Shown: positions 1,340-10,599 of the stretch, one piece after another
Layout: the number at the start of each line of letters is the position of its first letter
Numbering within the stretch: position 1 is the stretch's first letter
The notes under the pieces: model-generated
Seen by the model: the letters and a program-made list of their open reading frames with translations, nothing else
Databases searched by the model: none
Told to the model about the DNA's origin: nothing
Assembly (NCBI RefSeq): GCF_003367705.1
Contig: NZ_CP031425.1
Coordinates: 1,426,001-1,490,000 of the forward strand
Direction: 5' to 3'
Source of the DNA: Microbacterium foliorum
Lineage (GTDB): Bacteria > Actinomycetota > Actinomycetes > Actinomycetales > Microbacteriaceae
Length of the DNA: 64,000 nt
Translations under genes and position numbers: made by a program

Positions 1340-2131
1340 TCACGGGCGCACGGGAGGGAGCATCCGGTGCGAGAGCGCGCGCACCGAGCCCAGCCGTTGC
1401 CCGCCGCGGAGGAACAGTCCGATCGCCGTGAGGCGACGACGCAGACCCCACCAGCTCACCAGGGCGAGCGACTCGGAGACGATCGAGCCGCTCATCTTGG
1501 ACTCTCCGTGCACGCGCTCGACGAAGGTGATGGGCACTTCGACGACCCGCAGGCCGCGCTCGAGAGCGCGCCAGAGCAGGTCCACCTGGAAGCAGTACCC
1601 CTGGGAGGCCACGTGCGCGAGGTCGATGCGGCGCAGGGCGGCGGCGCTGAACACGCGGTAGCCGCCGGTGGAATCGCGCACGTCGATGCCGAGTGCGAGG
1701 CGAGCATAGAGGTTTCCGCCGCGACTCAGCACCTCGCGGTGGCGGGACCAGTTCAGCACGCGTCCGCCGGGCACCCAGCGCGAGCCGAGAACGAGATCGT
1801 GGTCGATCAGCTGCTCCACGAGCTTCGGGAGCTCCTCCGGACGGTGCGAGCCATCAGCGTCCATCTCGACGAGCGCCCAGTAGTCGCGTTCCAGTCCCCA
1901 CGCGAATCCGGCGAGGTACGCACCTCCGAGGCCGTTCTTCTCGGTGCGATGCAGGACGTCGACCTGAGGATGCCGCGCGGCCAGCGCATCTGCCAGCTCG
2001 CCCGTCCCATCGGGGGAGGCGTCGTCGACGATGAGGATGTCTGCGTCCGCCGCAGCGAGCACGCGAGTGACGATGCCCTCGAGGTTCTCGATCTCGTTGA
2101 ACGTCGGGATGATGACGAGCGTCTCGTTCAT
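1340..2131 (-). CDS. Family 2 glycosyltransferase, polyprenol-phosphate mannosyl/glycosyl synthase (Dpm1-like)
   Basis: Dpm1-type enzymes transfer a hexose from GDP-mannose or UDP-glucose to polyprenyl phosphate on the cytoplasmic membrane face, making the donor for extracytoplasmic transferases. The 263-residue protein shows the GT-A fold from the start: VIIPTFNEIENLEG, the nucleotide-binding DILIVDDASPDGTGELA and the metal-binding EMDADGSHRPEELPKL. STGGYRVFSAAAL and VPITFVERVHGESKM are typical of the dolichol-P-mannose synthase subgroup. No C-terminal membrane pair is evident, so it is the short soluble form. It is the last gene of the seven-gene surface operon, 19 bp after the sortase, and could supply the lipid-linked sugar used by the GT39-like enzyme at 4810-6819. 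The sugar cannot be read from sequence. Confidence 0.88.
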   Translation of the reverse strand: MNETLVIIPTFNEIENLEGIVTRVLAAADADILIVDDASPDGTGELADALAARHPQVDVLHRTEKNGLGGAYLAGFAWGLERDYWALVEMDADGSHRPEELPKLVEQLIDHDLVLGSRWVPGGRVLNWSRHREVLSRGGNLYARLALGIDVRDSTGGYRVFSAAALRRIDLAHVASQGYCFQVDLLWRALERGLRVVEVPITFVERVHGESKMSGSIVSESLALVSWWGLRRRLTAIGLFLRGGQRLGSVRALSHRMLPPVRP

Positions 2132-2150
2132 GGGTGGTCCTTTCGAGAGG

Positions 2151-2774
2151 TCAGACGCGGAGTTCCGCGAAGACGATGAGGTTGTCGAGGTAGTGGCCGG
2201 TCGAGGAATCGAAGATGCCCCCGCAGGTGATCAGGCGGAGCTCGGGGGCCGGCACGTTGCTGTAGACGGCATCGGTGGGGAACTCGGCCTTCGCCGACTG
2301 GGTCGAGCCGCTGACCGTGAACGTGAGGGTCGTGCCGTCGGCACGGGTGACGACGATGTCGTCGCCGGGGGACAGAGCACCGATGTCGGCGAAGACGGCC
2401 GGCGCGGTGGGGGAGTCCACATGGCCGGCGATGATCGCCGGACCGACCTGACCGGGCACGACTCCGCCGGAATACCACCCGGCGAGGTCGAAGTCGACAG
2501 GGGCGGCGAGGCGTCCGCTCCCATCGATCGCCAGATCCTCGAGCGCCGTGTCGACGCCGATCGCGGGGATCTGCACGCGAGTGGGAGGTGCGGTCTGGGC
2601 CTGTGGCTCCGGGGTCGACGGGTCTTGCAGACCACCCGCGGAGAAAGGGCCGGCCGGAGTCGGTGGCGCGGCGGGCACGGACTGCGCACCGATCGCACCG
2701 CACGCGCTCAGAAGCAGCGCGAGCACGAGAGCCCCCGCGGTGACGACAATTCGGGTCGCGCTGCTCCTGGACAT
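2151..2774 (-). CDS. Class F-type sortase with lipoprotein-like signal
   Basis: Sortases cut a C-terminal sorting signal and join surface proteins to the cell wall or to each other. The 207-residue product has an N-terminal membrane segment ending in a lipobox-like LLLSACG (Cys near residue 25), a proline-rich linker, then a sortase domain of class E/F type. The catalytic His is in AIIAGHVDS and the catalytic Cys in LRLITCGGIFD. The conserved Arg is less clear: the stretch after the Cys reads SSTGHYLDNLIVFA. Its start overlaps the stop of the GH8-like gene (TGATG). No clear LPXTG-type substrate is encoded in the window, so its client is unknown; the neighbouring DUF4397 protein is a candidate by position only. 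Confidence 0.85.
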   Translation of the reverse strand: MSRSSATRIVVTAGALVLALLLSACGAIGAQSVPAAPPTPAGPFSAGGLQDPSTPEPQAQTAPPTRVQIPAIGVDTALEDLAIDGSGRLAAPVDFDLAGWYSGGVVPGQVGPAIIAGHVDSPTAPAVFADIGALSPGDDIVVTRADGTTLTFTVSGSTQSAKAEFPTDAVYSNVPAPELRLITCGGIFDSSTGHYLDNLIVFAELRV

Positions 2775-3931
2775 CAGAGCTCTCCCGTCGCGCAGCCACC
2801 GAGGGCGTCATCCGTGAGCATCGCGGTGGACAGCATCACCCAGGCGGCGCCGTAGTAGGTCGGGTACTCGGCGGCGAGCTCTGCCGCGCGTTCGAGGTCG
2901 GAGGTGGCCGCGGACTCGTCGCCCGAGGCCTTCGCCGAGGCGGCGCGTGCGGCGAAGCCGAGCGGGGACTGCTCCTCCACCAGCGCGCCGCCCCCGAGGT
3001 CGAGGCGCGACTTGACGTCGTCCTCGCGGTCGAGTGTCGCGAGCGGCCGGCCGGCGAGCGCGACGTCGGCCGGTGCGCATGACTCCGCGTAGCGCAGCAT
3101 CAGGCGCGGCGCATCGAAGCCGTACTGCACCGGATCACCGCCGCCTCGTGGACCCGGCATCGGTTCGACGAGTCCATCCGTGTGCACCTGTGCCCAATCG
3201 GGCGGCAGGTCGGTCGCTTCGAAGATGTCGGTGGTCACCGCGGCGCTGCCCGCCTGCAGCTCGTCCCAACGGGGATCGCCGGTGGCGGCGCTCAGCACCT
3301 CGAACGTCACGGGCGAGGCGTAGCTCGGGTTGTAGGCGTAGGGCTCGCGATCCGCTGCCCACAGCCCGGGGAGGAGGATCCGGCCCTGCGCCGTCTCGAC
3401 GGTCATCCGATCGGCGATCGTGGTGGCGAGTGCCACACCATCGTCATGGAGGTCGGACCGCCCGAAGCGGTCGCCGGCGAGCACGAGCGCCCGTGCGGCG
3501 TCGAGGTCGGCATCGGAAGCCGGCTCGTCGTCGACGACCTCGCCCTCGTCCCAGCGCCACGCGAGAAGTCCGTCCGGGCGTACGAGCTCGTGCTGCGTCC
3601 ACGACCAGATCTCGTCGAACCGCTGCTCGTCCTCCGCGACGACGGCGGCGAACAGGCCATAGGCCTGGCCCTCGCTCACCGTGTCTCCGCCCTCGTCGTG
3701 GCGCACCACGCGTCCATCCTCGACCCAGTCGTCGAGGAACGAGGTGGCGAGCGATGACGCGTCGAGCTCAGGGGCTCCGTCTCCTGACGGGGGAAGCGCC
3801 GTCGAAGTGGCTTCAGGCCCCGCATCCGGAGGCCCGTGGTCGGAAGAGCTCACGCCGACGGCCACCACGGCGGTGCCGGCGGTCACCAGCACCGCCCCGG
3901 CCGCGACGGCGATCAAGGTGGACCGACGCAT
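2774..3931 (-). CDS. Glycoside hydrolase family 8-like protein, membrane-anchored
   Basis: GH8 enzymes include endo-glucanases such as BcsZ of cellulose synthase operons, which trim nascent glucan. The 385-residue protein has an N-terminal membrane anchor or signal (residues about 5-28) and a Ser/Pro-rich linker, then an alpha/alpha-barrel domain. GH8 landmarks are DTVSEGQAYGLFAAV with the expected acid Glu, RPDGLLAWRW, and PASDADLDAARALVLAG with the conserved Asp. Start and stop codons overlap both neighbours, so it is translationally coupled inside the surface operon. Placement near a processive GT2 parallels the bcsA-bcsZ pairing, which suggests trimming or release of a beta-glucan-like polymer outside the membrane; that role is inference. 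Confidence 0.8.
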   Translation of the reverse strand: MRRSTLIAVAAGAVLVTAGTAVVAVGVSSSDHGPPDAGPEATSTALPPSGDGAPELDASSLATSFLDDWVEDGRVVRHDEGGDTVSEGQAYGLFAAVVAEDEQRFDEIWSWTQHELVRPDGLLAWRWDEGEVVDDEPASDADLDAARALVLAGDRFGRSDLHDDGVALATTIADRMTVETAQGRILLPGLWAADREPYAYNPSYASPVTFEVLSAATGDPRWDELQAGSAAVTTDIFEATDLPPDWAQVHTDGLVEPMPGPRGGGDPVQYGFDAPRLMLRYAESCAPADVALAGRPLATLDREDDVKSRLDLGGGALVEEQSPLGFAARAASAKASGDESAATSDLERAAELAAEYPTYYGAAWVMLSTAMLTDDALGGCATGEL

Positions 3932-4770
3932 CAGAGAGCCTCGCCGAGGCGCTTCGCCGGCGCGACAGAGTTCGCGGCGTCGGAACCGAGGTATCCGCCG
4001 CCGGTGTCGACGCCGCCATCCGGCACGTCACCGACAGAAGAGCTGTCCAGGACCGGGAGAATGGTGAGTCCGCCGTCGGAGGTGTCGAGGACGAACAGCG
4101 TCGTCACGCTCCCCGGCGAGACGGAGACCTCGGCGGTGTCGGCGACACCCTTCCCTTTCAGGTCCAGCGTCCAGTCGCCGGCGGGGATCTCGGCGTAACC
4201 GGTGGCCGAGCCGGCCTTGGCGTCGCGGGCGATGGCATCTCCCTGCGTGGTCGTGACATCGACCTCGGGCGTGAGGGTCGATGCCTGGATGAGCCGGATG
4301 CGTGCGGCTCCCGTGGCGGGCTCGGTCAGATCGTCATCGAAGGCGCGTACCTGCAGATCGTCGGTCTGCCCGTAGGCCGCCACAGTCGTCGCCGTGCCGC
4401 TCTCGATCGTCACGGTCTCGGAGATGACGGGGACGCTCGATCCCGAGGCCCCGGCCGGCACCATGCTCACGGTGTAGCTGCCCGCGGGGAGTTCCCGATA
4501 GTCGGACACATCTCCGTAGCCCACGCCATCGAGCTCGAACAGGGTCGAGCCGCCGCTGACCGCCGAGACGCGCACGTCCACGGACTTCGTGTCGGGCGAG
4601 AGATGGCCGAGTCGCAGCCAGCCGGCCTGACCCGATGTGGCGGCGGGCACCGCGGCGCTCTCGGCCGTCGTGGCTGCGGTCGACGACAGCGGGGCGGCGA
4701 CCAGCATCAGCAGTGCCGTCGCGCCGGTTGCCATGGCGATGTTCAGGCGCGAGGATCGTGAGTTCTTCAT
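3931..4770 (-). CDS. DUF4397 domain secreted protein
   Basis: The 279-residue protein has a Sec signal peptide (basic MKNSRSSRLNIAM, then a hydrophobic stretch ending near APLSSTAATTA). Two beta-rich segments of the DUF4397 type follow: WLRLGHLSPDTKSVDVRV, ELPAGSYTVSMVPAG, then AARIRLIQASTLTPEVDV and EIPAGDWTLDLKG. DUF4397 proteins are extracellular with no assigned reaction. There is no LPXTG-like motif, C-terminal membrane helix or positive tail; the C-terminus is a Gly/Asp-rich tail ending in KRLGEAL. It is coupled to the GH8-like gene by an overlapping stop/start. Its place in an operon with a sortase suggests a structural or sugar-binding surface role, but that is not shown. Confidence 0.85.
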   Translation of the reverse strand: MKNSRSSRLNIAMATGATALLMLVAAPLSSTAATTAESAAVPAATSGQAGWLRLGHLSPDTKSVDVRVSAVSGGSTLFELDGVGYGDVSDYRELPAGSYTVSMVPAGASGSSVPVISETVTIESGTATTVAAYGQTDDLQVRAFDDDLTEPATGAARIRLIQASTLTPEVDVTTTQGDAIARDAKAGSATGYAEIPAGDWTLDLKGKGVADTAEVSVSPGSVTTLFVLDTSDGGLTILPVLDSSSVGDVPDGGVDTGGGYLGSDAANSVAPAKRLGEAL

Positions 4771-4809
4771 GATGTGCTCCTTCGATGGGGTTCGTGCGGG
4801 TATCGGTTG

Positions 4810-6819
4810 TCAGGGCAGCGTGGGCTGCACTGAGACGGAGTAGCGGAGGACGACGCTGTCGCCGTCGATCTCGACGGATGACGGCGCGTACGTGCCCTGG
4901 AGGGTGTCGACGAGCTCTCGCGCCTCGGGGCTGAGCCCGCCGTCGACGACGGTGGGCGCCGCCGCGATCGTCGAGAGGGACACCTGACGGAAAGCGAGAC
5001 CTTCCTCTCCGTCCACGATCGGGAAGCCGGACACGCTCACCGAACCGGAGCCGGCGAGAGTGGCCAGAACGGCGACGATCCGCTCGTCGACCTGCCCTGC
5101 GGTGAGGCGGTCGCGATCGTCTGCACTCAGCTGCACCTCCGGGTTCGTCGCGAGGGCCGAGCCCAGAGTCGTGCGATCCTGCACGGCGGCTTCCTGGGAT
5201 GCGGCGGCCTGCTCCGCGCCGTCGATCGTCACCCGACGTACGTCGACCGCCTGCGTGCCTTCGCCGAACGTGGCGACGACCACGGAGTTGTCGATCGCCT
5301 CCTGCACCTGCGGGAAAGCACCGGGGAAGGTGCGCATCGAGTCGGTGGTGACCACGTAGTCGGCGTCGCGCCAGCCGTTCGGCGAGTCGGCCTGCACGGC
5401 GGGGTCGGTGTCGAGCTTGTAGTACCAGATCACGTTGTCGCGGTCCCAGCCGGCCTTCACCAGGTCGACCCACATCGCATCGTCGACGATCACGCGCTGG
5501 TCGGTCGACGCGTTCTCGATGAGCCACTCCTGCGCTCCCCGCAGCGGCTCGTCGAGGTCGGCGAGCACGAATCCGCGCAGCTGCGCGGTCCACAGCGGAG
5601 CGGCGACGACGGCGCCGATCGCCGCCACGGCGACGGCCCCGATGGCGAGGGGTCTCCTGCTCGCACCTCGGCGGCGGATGCGGGCGACAGCCGCATCGAG
5701 GACACCGGCGATCAGCAGAGCGCCGAACGGGATGAGCATGATCACGTACGGCACCGGGAGATACCCGCCGGGACGGAACATGAAGACCGTCATCGCGAGC
5801 ACGAGCACCGCGTACGGACGAAGTCGGGGGAGGAGGAGTGCCGCCGCGGCAGCGAGGAGGCTGAGCACGATGAACACCGGATCCAGCTGCCACCACATGC
5901 CCAGCGTCCGGTTGATCAGAGAATCGGGATCGGTGATCGAGCCGCTGCCCTCTCGCGAGCCCAGCTGGAAGGTGATGCCCTCGATCAGGCTGACGCGGTC
6001 AGCGCCGGCGAGAAGCTCACCCTTGACCGCCGCGAGGAGCAGATAGCTCCCGCCGATCAGCACCAGCACGCTGGCTGCGACCGAGAGCGTGTAGCGACGG
6101 GTCTCCTTGCGAGACGAGCGCACCATGACCCAGATCAGGATCGGCAGCGCGAGCAGGAAGGTCTCCTTGGTCAGCACCGAGATGCCGAAGGCCGCGGCAG
6201 ATCCCGCGAAGGCCGCGAGCTGACCCCGACGGTTGGTCGCGAGGAAGAAGGCGAGCAGGAACCACGGCACCGCGACGTTGTCGAGGTACACGGTGCGATG
6301 GAACTGCACGGCGAGGGGAGACAGAGCGAAGATGATGCCGGTGGCTGCCGCCGCGCCCCGGGACATGCCCAATCGGCGGGCCAGTGCCCACAGCACGGCG
6401 ACCGAGATCAGAGCGGCGACCAGGACGGCTTCACGGCCGGCCAGCACGGCGATGTCCCACCGCTCGAAGGCGCCGGTGAGCTGCGTGTACCCGGCGATCT
6501 GCAGCCACCCCAGAGGGGGATGGTCGTACCAATAGGTGTAGTGGGCGAGCTCGCCGAGGTGTGTCACCGCCCAGGCCTGCGCGGTGTATGTACCCTCGTC
6601 GTCGATGCGCTGCGGGGCGCCGCCGACGTTCAGGAAGTTGACGATCGCGCTGACGACCAGCACTGGCACCAGCCAGAGCAGATCGCGTGCGTGGGTGCGC
6701 ACCCAGTCGGCCGCGCGACGACGCGCGCCGCCGAGACCGCGGGGGGACGGCGCGTCGCCGGGTGTCGTGACGGCGTCCGTGCGGTCGGGCTGTACGGGCT
6801 TCTCGAGCGTGGTGCTCAT
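4810..6819 (-). CDS. ArnT/GT39-like integral membrane glycosyltransferase
   Basis: This is a 669-residue polytopic membrane protein of the polyprenyl-phosphate-sugar-dependent transferase class (GT39/GT83, PMT/ArnT-like), which moves a sugar to an acceptor on the outer membrane face. A first helix is followed by an extracytoplasmic loop carrying the acidic motif PQRIDDEGTYTAQAW, the expected catalytic position. HPPLGWLQIAGY matches the family's second loop. Roughly ten hydrophobic helices occupy residues 45-420, followed by a large soluble C-terminal domain. The ATG at 6819 is chosen because it overlaps the stop of the GT2 gene by 4 bp (ATGA); the open frame extends further upstream inside GT2. 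The donor probably comes from the Dpm1-like enzyme at 1340-2131, and the acceptor is unknown. Confidence 0.85.
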   Translation of the reverse strand: MSTTLEKPVQPDRTDAVTTPGDAPSPRGLGGARRRAADWVRTHARDLLWLVPVLVVSAIVNFLNVGGAPQRIDDEGTYTAQAWAVTHLGELAHYTYWYDHPPLGWLQIAGYTQLTGAFERWDIAVLAGREAVLVAALISVAVLWALARRLGMSRGAAAATGIIFALSPLAVQFHRTVYLDNVAVPWFLLAFFLATNRRGQLAAFAGSAAAFGISVLTKETFLLALPILIWVMVRSSRKETRRYTLSVAASVLVLIGGSYLLLAAVKGELLAGADRVSLIEGITFQLGSREGSGSITDPDSLINRTLGMWWQLDPVFIVLSLLAAAAALLLPRLRPYAVLVLAMTVFMFRPGGYLPVPYVIMLIPFGALLIAGVLDAAVARIRRRGASRRPLAIGAVAVAAIGAVVAAPLWTAQLRGFVLADLDEPLRGAQEWLIENASTDQRVIVDDAMWVDLVKAGWDRDNVIWYYKLDTDPAVQADSPNGWRDADYVVTTDSMRTFPGAFPQVQEAIDNSVVVATFGEGTQAVDVRRVTIDGAEQAAASQEAAVQDRTTLGSALATNPEVQLSADDRDRLTAGQVDERIVAVLATLAGSGSVSVSGFPIVDGEEGLAFRQVSLSTIAAAPTVVDGGLSPEARELVDTLQGTYAPSSVEIDGDSVVLRYSVSVQPTLP

Positions 6820-8288
6820 GCCGTCACCTCCTGTGCGACAGGGGTCGCTGTGACGCGGGCGGGGCTCGCCCCGTCGTCGCGGTGTGCGCCGGTGTGCTCG
6901 GTCTTCTCCCAGCCGCGCTCGCCGCGCAGTTCGCGGAAGACCGCACGCATGGCCGCACCGGCCAGCAGCACCTGGAAGGGGATCGTCCCGAGTACCAGTC
7001 GCACGTAGTCGACGGCGCGGACCTTCTGTCCGTACAGCCTGCCGAACTCGCCGAGTCCGGCGATCTCGACGGCGACCGTGACGATGGTGGGAGCCAGCGG
7101 GATGAAAGTGAGCAGCGCCACGAGTGTGGGCACCTTCACGACGAGGATGAGGAACAGCGAGAGCGGGATCAGCAGACCCGTCGTCGCCTGCAGGAAAGGC
7201 ATCGCCAGCATGTAGCGCGCGAACAGCCGCTGCCCACGAGTGGGCAGGGCGCGCCATTCGCCCTTGCGCAGGACCTGCAGGAATCCCTGATTCCAGCGCG
7301 TGCGCTGCTTGTAGAAGGACTTCAGCGTGCCGGGAGTCTCCTCGCGGGTGACGTACTCGGGGCTGTATGCGACGACCACCTTCTCGCCCTGACTCGACAG
7401 CCGCACGCCGAGTTCGCAGTCCTCGGCGAGGCACTCTGCATCCCAGCCGTGGTTGTACTCGAGCGCGTCGCGCGTGACGAACACCGTGTTTCCGCCGAGA
7501 GGGATGAAGTTCGCTCCCGCATGGAAGTGCAGACGCGAGCGGAACCAGAAGTAGTACTCGAGCACGTTCCGCAGAGACCACCAGGAGCTGCGGAAGTTCA
7601 TCAGCTGCACGCCGCCCTGCACGACGGTGGCACCGCTTTCGGTGAAGCGCGAATCGATATGGCGCAGGAGTTCGGGGTGCACTTCGTCCTCGGCGTCGAA
7701 CACTCCCACTATCGACCCGGTGGCATACGCGAGAGCGCGGTTCAGTGCTTTCGGCTTGTTCTTGGGGACGCTGTCGTCGACGACCACCTCGATGCGGTCG
7801 GGATGCCGGTCGGCAGCGGCTCGCACGACCGCCGCTGTGCCGGGGTCGTCATCGCCGACGATCGCGATGATCTGCACGTCGGGGTGGGTCTGCGCGGCCA
7901 GTGCGTCGAGGGTCTGGCCCATGACCTCCTCCTCGTGCCTTCCCGGCACGAGGAGAGTGAAGGTGTGCTGCGGAGCCTGGGGCTCCTTCGAGAACGCCGT
8001 GCTGTCGTAGGTGCTCTTGGAACGCCAGGCGTACAGCATCCACCACAGAGTGGTCACGGCGATCGCGGTGAGCGACAGAGCCACGAGGACGAGCCCGGAG
8101 TACCCCACGATCGCAGCCCAGTCGACGCCGGCGGTGCTCTGCGACGTGTCGATGAGCCCGGGGTCGAGGACGTCGCGGTTGGGTACGCCCTGCGGAACCG
8201 GTGCCTGATCGGGTGCGGGCGTCAGCAGGGGATCCGGAGCGGGATCGCTCTCGAAGCGGCGAGGGATGAGGGAGGAGTGGGCGGTCAT
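6816..8288 (-). CDS. Processive family 2 glycosyltransferase (BcsA/hyaluronan synthase-like)
   Basis: This 490-residue membrane transferase has the D, D, D, QxxRW signature of processive beta-glycan synthases: the VGDDD site, the metal-binding FDAEDE, the base in LAEDCELGVRL and QRTRWNQGF. A single helix precedes the GT-A domain (about residues 60-85), and three or four follow it (about residues 365-460), the arrangement of cellulose and poly-GlcNAc synthases. There is no PilZ domain. The ATG at 8288 is chosen over upstream in-frame codons because it gives a 4-bp overlap with gtrA. With the GH8-like enzyme encoded downstream, a secreted beta-linked polymer is the simplest reading; the sugar cannot be told from sequence. 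Confidence 0.85.
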   Translation of the reverse strand: MTAHSSLIPRRFESDPAPDPLLTPAPDQAPVPQGVPNRDVLDPGLIDTSQSTAGVDWAAIVGYSGLVLVALSLTAIAVTTLWWMLYAWRSKSTYDSTAFSKEPQAPQHTFTLLVPGRHEEEVMGQTLDALAAQTHPDVQIIAIVGDDDPGTAAVVRAAADRHPDRIEVVVDDSVPKNKPKALNRALAYATGSIVGVFDAEDEVHPELLRHIDSRFTESGATVVQGGVQLMNFRSSWWSLRNVLEYYFWFRSRLHFHAGANFIPLGGNTVFVTRDALEYNHGWDAECLAEDCELGVRLSSQGEKVVVAYSPEYVTREETPGTLKSFYKQRTRWNQGFLQVLRKGEWRALPTRGQRLFARYMLAMPFLQATTGLLIPLSLFLILVVKVPTLVALLTFIPLAPTIVTVAVEIAGLGEFGRLYGQKVRAVDYVRLVLGTIPFQVLLAGAAMRAVFRELRGERGWEKTEHTGAHRDDGASPARVTATPVAQEVTA

Positions 8289-8761
8289 GAGGTGGCCTCC
8301 TGAGGAGTGCGGAACACGAGGAACCGGTAGGTGAAGTACCGGAAGAGGGTGCCGAGCACGAGTCCGATGACGTTGCCGGAGATGTTGTCCGCGAGAGCGG
8401 AGGTGAACCCGAGCAGGTAGTGCGAGACGAACAGGCAGCCGGACGCGATCAGCAGCCCGCCTCCGTTCGCGAGCAGGAAGAGCAGGAGCTCTTTGGCGAC
8501 CGCGGGCCGTCTCGTCGTGCGGAACGTGACGTAGCGATGCCCGAGCCAGGCGACCCCCGTCGCGACGGAGACCGAGATCACCTTCGCCCAGATGACCTGA
8601 TCGGGCATCACGGTCGCACGCAGCAGGTTGTAGCCGCCCACGTCGACGACGAAGGCGATGAGCCCCACGCCGCCGAAGGTGGCGAGCTGGGGGACCGCTC
8701 CTCGCAGTGCGGAGGCGAGGCGAGACATCAGAAGAGATGGCGCGGAGGGGGTGAGCGTCAT
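8285..8761 (-). CDS. GtrA family membrane protein
   Basis: GtrA proteins are small four-helix membrane proteins thought to flip or present polyprenyl-phosphate-linked sugars to extracytoplasmic transferases. The 158-residue product has four hydrophobic segments, with the family motifs FGGVGLIAFVVDVGGYNLL near the start, ATGVAWLGHRYVTF in the middle and FRYFTYRFLVF near the end. It is the first gene of the seven-gene minus-strand operon. No Shine-Dalgarno sequence or clear -10 box was found before the ATG, so promoter and start are less certain than the frame. Co-occurrence with Dpm1-like and GT39-like genes gives a complete make-flip-transfer set. Confidence 0.88.
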   Translation of the reverse strand: MTLTPSAPSLLMSRLASALRGAVPQLATFGGVGLIAFVVDVGGYNLLRATVMPDQVIWAKVISVSVATGVAWLGHRYVTFRTTRRPAVAKELLLFLLANGGGLLIASGCLFVSHYLLGFTSALADNISGNVIGLVLGTLFRYFTYRFLVFRTPQEATS

Positions 8762-8936
8762 GCTGGGGGTTCGGATGCACTCGTCCAGACGGATTGGATG
8801 CGATTCGCGGAAAAAGACGGAAATCGCGCGATCTGCGCCCCGATCGACGACGGTGCGGCGTCGGCGTCTCCTCAGAGATGAGCAGACGCATCGCGAAGCC
8901 CGGAGAGTTCTATGATTCTGCCCACAATACGATTTA

Positions 8937-8951
8937 GCTAGCTAAGCTAGC
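8937..8951. promoter_or_regulatory. Perfect palindrome just upstream of MFS exporter start (candidate operator)
   Basis: A 15-bp perfect inverted repeat, GCTAGCT-A-AGCTAGC, ends 4 nt before the ATG at 8956. -10-like boxes TATGAT (8911-8916) and TACGAT (8928-8933) lie just upstream. There is no Shine-Dalgarno sequence, so a protein bound here would cover the transcript start or start codon. This is typical of TetR- or MarR-type control of exporters, but no regulator gene is adjacent. Confidence 0.6.
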
Positions 8952-8955
8952 AGTC

Positions 8956-10599
8956 ATGGAACGATACTTTCGGCTTCGGTGGGCGGGCCTGGTCTTCATC
9001 AGCATCGCGGTCTCGCTGATCATCGTCGACTCGACGATCGTCAACGTCGCGATCCCTGCGATCGTCGACGATCTCGGCATCACGTCCACCGAGGTGCAGT
9101 GGGTGCAGGAGGCCTACACGCTGGTGTTCGCCGCGCTGCTGCTCGTGTTCGGGAGTCTCGCCGATCGGTTCGGCCGGCGACGCATGATGCTGATCGGAGT
9201 CGTCGTCTTCGCCGCCTCATCCGTGCTCGCCTCCTTCGCACCGGACGGCGGGATGCTCATCCTCGCCCGACTCGCACAGGGCGTCGGAGGGTCGATGATC
9301 CTCCCCACGACGCTGTCGATCATCAACGCCACCTTCCGTGGCAAGGAGCGCGGCATCGCCTTCGCCGTCTGGGGATCGACGATCGGCGGCATGGCAGCTG
9401 TCGGTCCGCTGCTGGGCGGATGGCTGACCACAGCGTTCTCGTGGCGCTGGGCGTTCGGCATCAACATCCCGCTCGGCATCATCATCGTCATCGGCGTGCT
9501 GCTGACCGTCGCCGAATCCCGCAGTGATCGGACGTCGCGGATCGATGTCGTCGGCGCGCTCCTCTCGGTGCTCACGATGGGAAGCCTCGTCTTCGGACTC
9601 ATCGAGGGGCGGACCTACGGCTGGTGGCTCGTCGACCAGCGTCCGCAGATCGGCGACTGGACCTGGCCGCTCGACCTGTCGCCGATCCCTTTCGCCTTCG
9701 CGCTCGCCCTGGTCTCCCTCGTCGCGTTCATCGTGTGGGGAGTGCACCGCGAGCGTCACGGCAGGTCGACCCTCCTGGCCCTGCGTCTGTTCGCGATCCC
9801 GTCGTTCCGCAACGGAAACATCGCGGCCACGGTGGTCTCGCTGGGGGAGTTCGGCATCATCCTCGCGCTGCCGCTGTGGCTGCAGTTCGTGCTGGGCTTC
9901 GATGCCCTGCAGACCGGACTGCTGCTGCTGGCGCTCGCCGGCGGATCGTTCGTCGCCAGCGGTGCAGCCGGTGCGGCGAGCGGCAAGGTCGCGCCCGTGT
10001 GGGTCGTCCGCGCGGGGCTGATCGCAGAGATCGTCGGTGTCGCCGGCGTCGGCTTCGTCATCGCGCCAGACGCGTCATGGGTCCCGCTCATTCCGTTCCT
10101 CTTCGTCTACGGGCTCGGCGTGGGGCTCGCGACGGCCCAGTTGACCGGTGTCGTCCTCGCCGATGTCCCGGTCGCGGACAGTGGCGCGGCATCCGGCACG
10201 CAGTCGACGTCGCGTCAGCTCGGGGCCGCTCTCGGCGTCGCGGTGCTGGGCACCGTGCTCTTCACCAGCACGGCTGGGATCCTCGATTCCTCGCTCGAGG
10301 CGAGGGGAGTGCCCGCCGATCAGCGTGATCAGGTCGTGGCGTCGGTCGTCGACAGCGCAGGGGCCGCCATCAGCGGACTGGAGGCGCAGCCCGAGACCGC
10401 GGACATCGCGGATGACGCCAAAGCAGCCTTCTCCGACGGAACGCGTTTCTCCGCGTGGACGGCGGCAGGGTTCCTCACGCTCGGCCTGCTGTCGACGATC
10501 TCCCTCGGCGCCGGTGCACGGAGTCGCAGCGAAGACGAGGAGACGGACGCAGGCCCTCAGACGACGGATGCTGCCGCGGAGAGCGATTCTTCGCGCTGA
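8956..10599 (+). CDS. MFS transporter, DHA2 (EmrB/QacA-like) drug exporter, 14 helices
   Basis: This is a proton-driven multidrug efflux protein of the DHA2 family. At 547 residues with about 14 hydrophobic segments it has the normal length for the family. Visible motifs are DSTIVNVAIPAI in helix 1 (motif D1), GSLADRFGRRRMM in the first cytoplasmic loop (motif A), ARLAQGVGGSMILPTTLSII in helix 4, and WGSTIGGMAAVGPLLGGWLT (motif C of antiporters). The C-terminus is an acidic hydrophilic tail. A perfect palindrome lies immediately before the start, suggesting repression relieved by a ligand. It is divergent from gtrA and ends before a strong terminator. The substrate cannot be deduced. Confidence 0.92.
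   Translation: MERYFRLRWAGLVFISIAVSLIIVDSTIVNVAIPAIVDDLGITSTEVQWVQEAYTLVFAALLLVFGSLADRFGRRRMMLIGVVVFAASSVLASFAPDGGMLILARLAQGVGGSMILPTTLSIINATFRGKERGIAFAVWGSTIGGMAAVGPLLGGWLTTAFSWRWAFGINIPLGIIIVIGVLLTVAESRSDRTSRIDVVGALLSVLTMGSLVFGLIEGRTYGWWLVDQRPQIGDWTWPLDLSPIPFAFALALVSLVAFIVWGVHRERHGRSTLLALRLFAIPSFRNGNIAATVVSLGEFGIILALPLWLQFVLGFDALQTGLLLLALAGGSFVASGAAGAASGKVAPVWVVRAGLIAEIVGVAGVGFVIAPDASWVPLIPFLFVYGLGVGLATAQLTGVVLADVPVADSGAASGTQSTSRQLGAALGVAVLGTVLFTSTAGILDSSLEARGVPADQRDQVVASVVDSAGAAISGLEAQPETADIADDAKAAFSDGTRFSAWTAAGFLTLGLLSTISLGAGARSRSEDEETDAGPQTTDAAAESDSSR

Follow-up and report, generated by a model that had tools for sequence, protein, structure and literature searches.

Introduction

The bacterial cellulose synthase operon encodes BcsA and BcsZ, a membrane glycosyltransferase of family GT2 (motifs D, D, ED and QxxRW) beside a glycoside hydrolase of family GH8, and GtrA-GtrB-GtrC is a three-component glycan modification system. 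In the present study, we analyzed a seven-gene operon that combines genes like those of both systems with a class F sortase and a secreted protein carrying DUF4397 domains. It occupies positions 1340-8761 of a 64,000-nucleotide stretch of the Microbacterium foliorum genome (contig NZ_CP031425.1), and this whole stretch is called the window. The comparative results suggested that the locus is probably a glycan-coupled protein-sorting operon, in which the DUF4397 protein is likely the substrate of the sortase.

Exopolysaccharide-associated protein sorting has been described for the PEP-CTERM/EpsH (exosortase) system (PMC1569441). As for class F sortases, LPQTGE peptides are substrates of the SrtF of Propionibacterium acnes (PMC7451113), and a 2020 paper gives the function of the class as unknown (PMC6998099). 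A 2026 paper likewise gives its physiological roles as unknown and reports that Actinoplanes missouriensis kept an unchanged phenotype after its four class F genes had all been deleted (PMC13251363). The substrate search described there covered motifs of the LPXTG, NPXTG, SPXTG, PPXTG, LPXTA and LAXTG types only, and such a search would overlook signals of the PxGG[VI]xTGGG type. Our literature search found no paper treating class F sortase and DUF4397 together, which does not prove that none is in print.

Organization of the Operon

The seven genes lie on the minus strand and follow one another, in the direction of transcription, as GtrA, GT2, GT39, DUF4397, GH8, sortase and Dpm1:

8285..8761, minus strand: GtrA-like membrane protein (PF04138, 72 bits, cut-off 26, E 5.9e-20)
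6816..8288, minus strand: membrane GT2 glycosyltransferase (PF13641, 145 bits, cut-off 27, E 5.4e-42)
4810..6819, minus strand: GT39/ArnT-like GT-C transferase (PMT_2 PF13231, 44 bits, cut-off 26, E 3.1e-11)
3931..4770, minus strand: secreted protein with two DUF4397 domains (PF14344, 126.6 bits, cut-off 30.6, E 9.9e-37, two stretches)
3994..4023, minus strand: candidate sortase signal P-D-G-G-V-D-T-G-G-G near the C-terminus of the DUF4397 protein (read from the sequence)
2774..3931, minus strand: GH8 endoglucanase-like hydrolase (PF01270, 112.8 bits, cut-off 24, E 2.4e-32)
2151..2774, minus strand: class F sortase (PF04203, 72 bits, cut-off 27; NF033748, 180.5 bits, cut-off 166)
1340..2131, minus strand: Dpm1-like polyprenyl-phosphate sugar synthase (PF00535, 103 bits, cut-off 23, E 2.4e-29)

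All seven proteins exceeded the Pfam gathering cut-off, the sortase also passed the NCBIfam class F cut-off, and the order and the families given in the initial annotation were confirmed. That annotation had also described the genes as packed with 4-bp overlaps or small gaps. The distances in transcription order are -4, -4, +39, -1, -1 and +19 bp, so that two 4-bp overlaps and two small gaps were recovered, but the remaining two overlaps measure 1 bp. The genome is a single contig of 3.57 Mb, and the closest named relatives of GT2 and GH8 were both from Microbacterium.

Conservation of the Operon in Relatives

A GT2 scan of contigs, with one genome per species, yielded 440 coding stretches, and the locus counts rest on the best 80. 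A locus was testable for the five core genes when more than 6 kb of contig lay beyond GT39 (n=68); the identical copies L011 and L012 were both counted, and many Curtobacterium rows are near-copies. It was observed that GT2, GT39, DUF4397, GH8 and the class F sortase occurred together in 68/68 of these loci, and the largest stop-to-stop step among the 72 loci with all five core genes was 2,078 bp. The window's gene order was kept, for the genes found, in 78/80 loci; the exceptions were L013, where Dpm1 precedes the sortase, and L022, where the single Dpm1-like match lies far upstream. The seven-gene arrangement is beyond chance, as this shared order indicates. The loci came from Microbacterium, Curtobacterium, Plantibacter, Subtercola, Promicromonospora, Antribacter, Cellulomonas, Arthrobacter, Tersicoccus, Microlunatus and other genera, which we take to span several families. 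The recurrence across Actinobacteria for which the initial annotation had proposed a search was thus confirmed, and the co-location and order ruled out a strain-specific or chance cluster. The complete set of seven genes was present in 42/65 testable loci, with GtrA adjoining GT2 (within 1.5 kb upstream) in 49/73 and Dpm1 adjoining the sortase in 49/68; GtrA and Dpm1 are optional genes of the operon.

The distribution is patchy. A GH8 relative was found in only 5/35 genomes of the same genus, the window's own included, and GT2, GH8, DUF4397 and sortase occurred in the window's form in 3/149 genomes of the order (G000, G245 and G281). In the GT2 tree, the Microbacterium clade of the window was joined by the operons of Promicromonospora (L009) and Antribacter (L010), at 78-80% identity; this grouping suggests that the operon moved between families. 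This patchiness, the likely transfer and the occasional occurrence of GT2-GT39-Dpm1 alone would suit a loose accessory island, where genes for surface functions gathered without forming one machine; with the conserved order, the overlaps, three kinds of gene fusion and a second arrangement of the same families set against it, we find this explanation scarcely credible.

Relatives of the flanking MarR and OsmC genes were not detected at E 1e-10 in any of the 80 loci, so one end of the operon is marked there. As candidate operon members, MarR, OsmC and the major facilitator superfamily (MFS) gene were rejected; MFS relatives lay within 1.5 kb in 4/80 loci, and only that of L003 was close. A perfect palindrome, TTAGCTAGCTAA, is located at window positions 8934-8945, in the interval separating the operon from a divergent MFS exporter gene (8956-10599), and TTAGCTAGCTAA is a possible regulator site. 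Two genomes carried the operon twice. In Lacisediminihabitans changchengi, the copies (L011 and L012) lie on two scaffolds and are identical over the entire 21,305 bp fetched, representing either a recent duplication or an assembly artefact. The other genome has the intact L152 and a frame-broken second copy, L153 (G281:C1), on a 10-kb contig.

DUF4397 Protein as the Candidate Sortase Substrate

In the order sample of 149 genomes, 90 DUF4397 genes were listed, and sortase matches were taken at E <= 1e-20. For 79 of the 90 genes, a class F sortase lay downstream on the same strand, at a domain gap of 585-1661 bp (median 692). GH8 sits between the two in three of the 79 pairs (the window, G245:C55 and G281:C2), and at least three of the 11 unpaired genes are near a contig end (G041:C8, G057:C65 and G199:C20). 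We fetched 75 of the 79 pairs (all but the window's, those of the two operon copies and that of G291) and called the tails by simple hydropathy with a threshold of 1.5. The results indicated that 72/75 paired DUF4397 proteins have a hydrophobic span at the end, with one or more Arg/Lys after it; the other three were the fusions L214 and L239 and the borderline L206. In a phylum sample of 119 genomes, assessed by eye, 14 adjacent pairs and one fusion were found among 29 DUF4397 genes, the window's excluded. The order-wide pairing and the substrate-like C-termini suggested that the DUF4397 protein is likely a substrate of the class F sortase.

Within the operon family, the signal or a close variant was present in 76/76 DUF4397 proteins (L041, L071 and L082 by eye), and a membrane tail followed it in 31/76. 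The tail-less set, including the window, comprises 46 rows, in which P, the first G, T and the next three G were each conserved in 46/46; the window's signal, which is not LPXTG, has its key positions kept in all 46. The Asp at the end of the DUF4397 domain was also found in 46/46, and the residues after the signal mostly varied, except for an Ala five places on (43/46). Among the best 119 of 471 further homologues, a set biased toward near relatives of the tail-less query, 112 carried P-x-[GDK]-[GP]-[VIT]-x-TG-[GSA]-[GA] with no tail, six had a close variant and one was cut off. A DNA pattern for GG[VI]xTGGG occurred once in the 3.57-Mb genome, in this gene, and the backward control also gave 1. 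A phmmer search of the PDB (E up to 1) returned no solved DUF4397 relative.

These tail-less proteins bear on the alternative that the DUF4397 protein of the window strain is no longer a substrate, being secreted with GG[VI]xTGGG serving binding or docking, and that the sortase serves something else. Although neither a hydrophobic span nor a basic tail was found in the window and in 45/76 loci, and 112/119 of the best homologues (a set close to the tail-less query itself) show the signal without a tail, the signal is strictly kept while most later residues drift, the sortase His, Arg180 and Cys are intact in 72/72 loci, and an exact copy of the signal occurs nowhere else in the genome. We therefore judge the loss of substrate status to be quite improbable.

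On the GT2 tree, a quick one with long-branch warnings, the tail trait showed three changes, of which the starred branches force only one. Loss of the tail appears likelier than gain, because the tail is usual order-wide. Fusion of GH8 with the sortase was considered as an explanation of the tail and rejected: the fused loci were tailed in 20/20 cases but form one clade of the GT2 tree, so they lend no independent support to a tie between fusion and tail.

The Class F Sortase

H118, R180, C184 and N198 of the sortase were invariant in 72/72 loci. The residue at Cys+13, which we take to be the usual sortase arginine position (SrtA Arg197), was D/N in 66/72 loci, R in 4/72 and Q/E in 2/72, so that the usual arginine does not characterize this set. 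R180, at Cys-4, was the sole invariant arginine across the sortase set, and it may, at a guess, take over the role of the usual one. Replacement of Arg by Asn in actinobacterial class F sortases has already been reported (PMC6998099). An enzyme inactive for want of Arg is disfavoured, given that R180 is kept in every locus and that class F sortases without the usual Arg are known. The window sortase contains a lipobox-like LSAC (Cys25), by pattern only, and a lipobox was found by pattern in at least 22 stand-alone sortases including the window's, eight with tailed and 14 with tail-less partners.

The entry 5uus, presumably the P. acnes sortase F, scored only 21 bits against the class F profile of the window's family, and its aligned cysteine region is TTCHPQFSNAER, compared with TCGGxFDxxxGHYxDN in that family. 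The weak match and the different cysteine region suggested that the name class F may cover two groups.

Two genomes, G079 and G161, contain strong class F sortases (L090, L091 and others; >200 bits) and no DUF4397 match; the substrates of these sortases must therefore differ. Two broader proposals were refuted. Arg at Cys-4 is not a mark of a DUF4397 partner, since L090 and L091 have it as well, and DUF4397 is not the partner of every class F sortase, as G079, G161 and the sortase matches without a partner (57/136) demonstrate.

Pair Types, Fusions and a Second Arrangement

The DUF4397-sortase pairs were divided into type A, with the strict pattern PxG[GA][VIA]xTGxG, and type B, comprising the other pairs. 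Type A, to which the window's pair belongs, accounted for 15/75 pairs, and the sortase had Arg at Cys-4 in 15/15 of them (14 by script, L205 by eye) versus 1/60 of the others. Neighbours were detected with hidden Markov models built from the window's operon, in a type A set of 14 (12 of the 15 pairs, G291 and the unpaired G207:C1) and a type B set of 26 of the 60. A Dpm1-, GT39-, GH8- or GT2-like gene lay within 1 kb in 10/14 type A and 0/26 type B cases (Fisher p 1.2e-6), and in 6/14 versus 0/26 when only Pfam-confirmed (PF00535) neighbours were counted (p 7.8e-4). Glycan-type genes were also present beside the type A pairs outside this set (G041, G235 and G263).

In four genomes of another family (f8; G041, G235, G263 and G291), a second arrangement was found, with the DUF4397-sortase pair followed by a Dpm1-type gene and then by GH8 and GT2 in 4/4. 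Cellulose_synt (PF03552) matched the GT2 of G041 and G291, and the G041 enzyme reached 283 bits against the BcsA model TIGR03030 (cut-off 699); G041 also has GtrA and a GT4-type gene. Here, apart from the window's operon, type A pairs are associated with an enzyme resembling cellulose synthase.

Three kinds of fusion tie parts of the operon together pairwise. GH8::sortase in one open frame occurred in 20/72 loci with both genes; the fusion was Pfam-confirmed in L017 and in L152, from a further genome outside the 72, and the proteins P0064 and P0065 from the protein search carry both domains. The 20 cases represent one change on the GT2 tree and were counted as one event (L031 excluded). DUF4397::sortase frames were present in L100, L214 and L239 (Pfam was run on L100 only), and GT39::GH8 frames, beside GT2, in two genomes belonging to the same genus (L150 and L151). 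In L031 (Microbacterium hydrothermale), from an otherwise fused clade, the GH8 and sortase halves are in different frames, owing to either a sequencing error or decay.

The Glycan Enzymes

D147, D148, D198, E289, D290, Q328, R331 and W332 of GT2 were invariant in 80/80 loci, in the motifs D147/D148, D198-A-E-D, E289-D290 and Q328xxR331W332. The D, D, D, QxxRW signature of processive inverting GT2 enzymes (HAS/BcsA/PgaC type) was thus found in every locus, as initially annotated, except that the third acidic motif is A-E-D (E289/D290). The catalytic roles assigned to conserved residues here are those we presume from family knowledge. Across the ED/QxxRW part, the GT2 profile aligns with BcsA chains; against the BcsA model TIGR03030, the window protein scored 31.4 bits, below the cut-off of 699.1, and PilZ was absent among its Pfam matches.

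The GH8 protein has a single N-terminal hydrophobic segment. Its E87, D140 and D142 were present in 73/73 loci, and position 273 was D in 68, E in four and a gap in one. The best PDB match was 1wzz (85 bits), with whose residues these align. The protein is closest to GH8 of the BcsZ/endoglucanase type and scored 124 bits against the BcsZ equivalog NF008305, below its cut-off of 299. The D73-D74-E75 motif of GT39 was invariant in 80/80 loci, as were D36, D91 and D93 of Dpm1 in 52/52, and GtrA is a candidate flippase or partner for the lipid-linked sugar synthase.

GT2 also matched Glyco_transf_21 (PF13506) and HpnI. Along with its roughly four hydrophobic segments and the type A pairs that elsewhere lie beside a lone Dpm1-like or GT39-like gene with no GH8, these matches would fit a locus without a polymer, where GT2 adds one or a few sugars to a lipid in the manner of GT21/HpnI, Dpm1-GtrA-GT39 glycosylates the DUF4397 protein and the sortase anchors it. 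Such a locus would leave little place for a GH8 that is catalytically intact in 68/68 testable loci and fused to the sortase in 20/72, and the GT39::GH8 fusion, the invariant QxxRW of GT2 and the BcsA-like synthase of the second arrangement likewise speak against it. We hold this alternative to be unlikely, though one to be taken seriously.

Proposed Mechanism

In the mechanism that we propose, the membrane GT2 would build, and probably export, a beta-linked and probably cellulose-like glycan, which GH8 would trim on the outer side of the membrane. Dpm1 would produce a polyprenyl-phosphate sugar, GtrA would assist in flipping it across the membrane, and on the outside the sugar would be transferred by the GT39-like enzyme onto the glycan or the DUF4397 protein. 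The sortase is predicted to cut the secreted DUF4397 protein at PxGG[VI]xT|G and to join it to the wall, or to an amine of the wall or glycan, so that the anchored protein would hold the glycan on the cell surface. The gene set and order, their conservation, the intact active sites, the fusions, the pairing and the conserved signal are read from the sequences; from them we infer the identity of the polymer, the direction of sugar transfer, the cleavage point and the acceptor. For the mechanism as a whole, we put the chances at slightly better than even.

Several observations weigh against it. The window's DUF4397 protein keeps the signal PDGGVDTGGG but has no membrane tail after it. The hydrophobic segments of GT2 form three blocks, one of them 53 long, and GT2 reached no NCBIfam cut-off, the top models being an XrtP-associated glycosyltransferase (97 bits, cut-off 520) and PgaC (76 bits, cut-off 422). 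The processivity of GT2 and its polymer product are thus presumed, as is the action of GT39 on the polymer rather than on the DUF4397 protein. The "complete kit" of the initial annotation held for the five core genes, but GtrA was absent in 24/73 loci and Dpm1 in 19/68. Of the 136 class F sortase matches, 57 had no DUF4397 partner. In the phylum sample, 14/29 DUF4397 genes had no sortase partner, and 11 of these 14 belong to genomes lacking a strong class F match; among the unpaired genes, L122 and L123 have a PDTGG-type signal and a tail, and L129, L130, L142 and L143 are tail-less. For four of the ten neighbours of type A genes, the match was GT39-like at 27-50 bits and Pfam detected no glycosyltransferase, and the type A/B statistics ignore kinship. 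Finally, six further genomes of the order, in addition to G000, G245 and G281, contained a relative of GT2 (E 1e-60 or better). Five of these (G052, G184, G251, G265 and G295) had GT2, GT39 and Dpm1, and no DUF4397 or sortase was found in the fetched stretches, so the halves of the operon can exist apart; in the sixth, G044, GT2 lies near a contig end.

The proposal of a surface glycan polymer in the initial annotation gained from the intact active sites, the BcsZ-like GH8 and the BcsA-like second cluster, while polymer synthesis by GT2 is still presumed. Its sortase-built scaffold stood in part: the sortase is coupled to the locus, but a separate scaffold is unneeded, the likely substrate being the DUF4397 protein encoded two genes upstream. 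A further-reaching idea, to which we give only a small chance, is that the class F sortases with Arg at Cys-4 and a DUF4397 partner are glycan-coupled sortases with dedicated PxGG[VI]xTGGG DUF4397 substrates; the tail-less substrate of the operon family would then be held by the glycan or GH8, and perhaps joined to the glycan apparatus rather than to peptidoglycan.

Comparison with Known Systems

The locus has partial counterparts in four described systems. As in the cellulose synthase operon, a GT2 with D, D, ED and QxxRW adjoins GH8, and the GT2 of the second arrangement is BcsA-like. Unlike BcsA, the window's GT2 is short, has no PilZ match and falls far under the TIGR03030 cut-off; a sortase, DUF4397 and GT39 are additional, and BcsB is missing among the seven genes. 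With GtrA-GtrB-GtrC, the locus shares GtrA, a Dpm1-like synthase and a GT-C transferase; in the window's family, however, GtrA and Dpm1 are dispensable and coupled to GT2, GH8 and a sortase. The window enzyme is, like P. acnes sortase F, a sortase called class F, and 5uus, with 21 bits against the profile, differs from its family in the cysteine region (TTCHPQFSNAER, not TCGGxFDxxxGHYxDN). A named partner gene and a signal make the role of class F sortases directly testable.

The PEP-CTERM/EpsH system resembles the locus in that a sorting enzyme lies beside exopolysaccharide genes and the cargo carries a short C-terminal signal. In addition, the top NCBIfam neighbour of GT2 is the XrtP-associated glycosyltransferase, below its cut-off. 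In contrast to PEP-CTERM/EpsH, the window's operon has an actinobacterial sortase (PF04203, His/Cys), a DUF4397 cargo and the PxGG[VI]xTGGG signal. Collectively, the operon would represent an actinobacterial parallel to the exosortase-exopolysaccharide systems.

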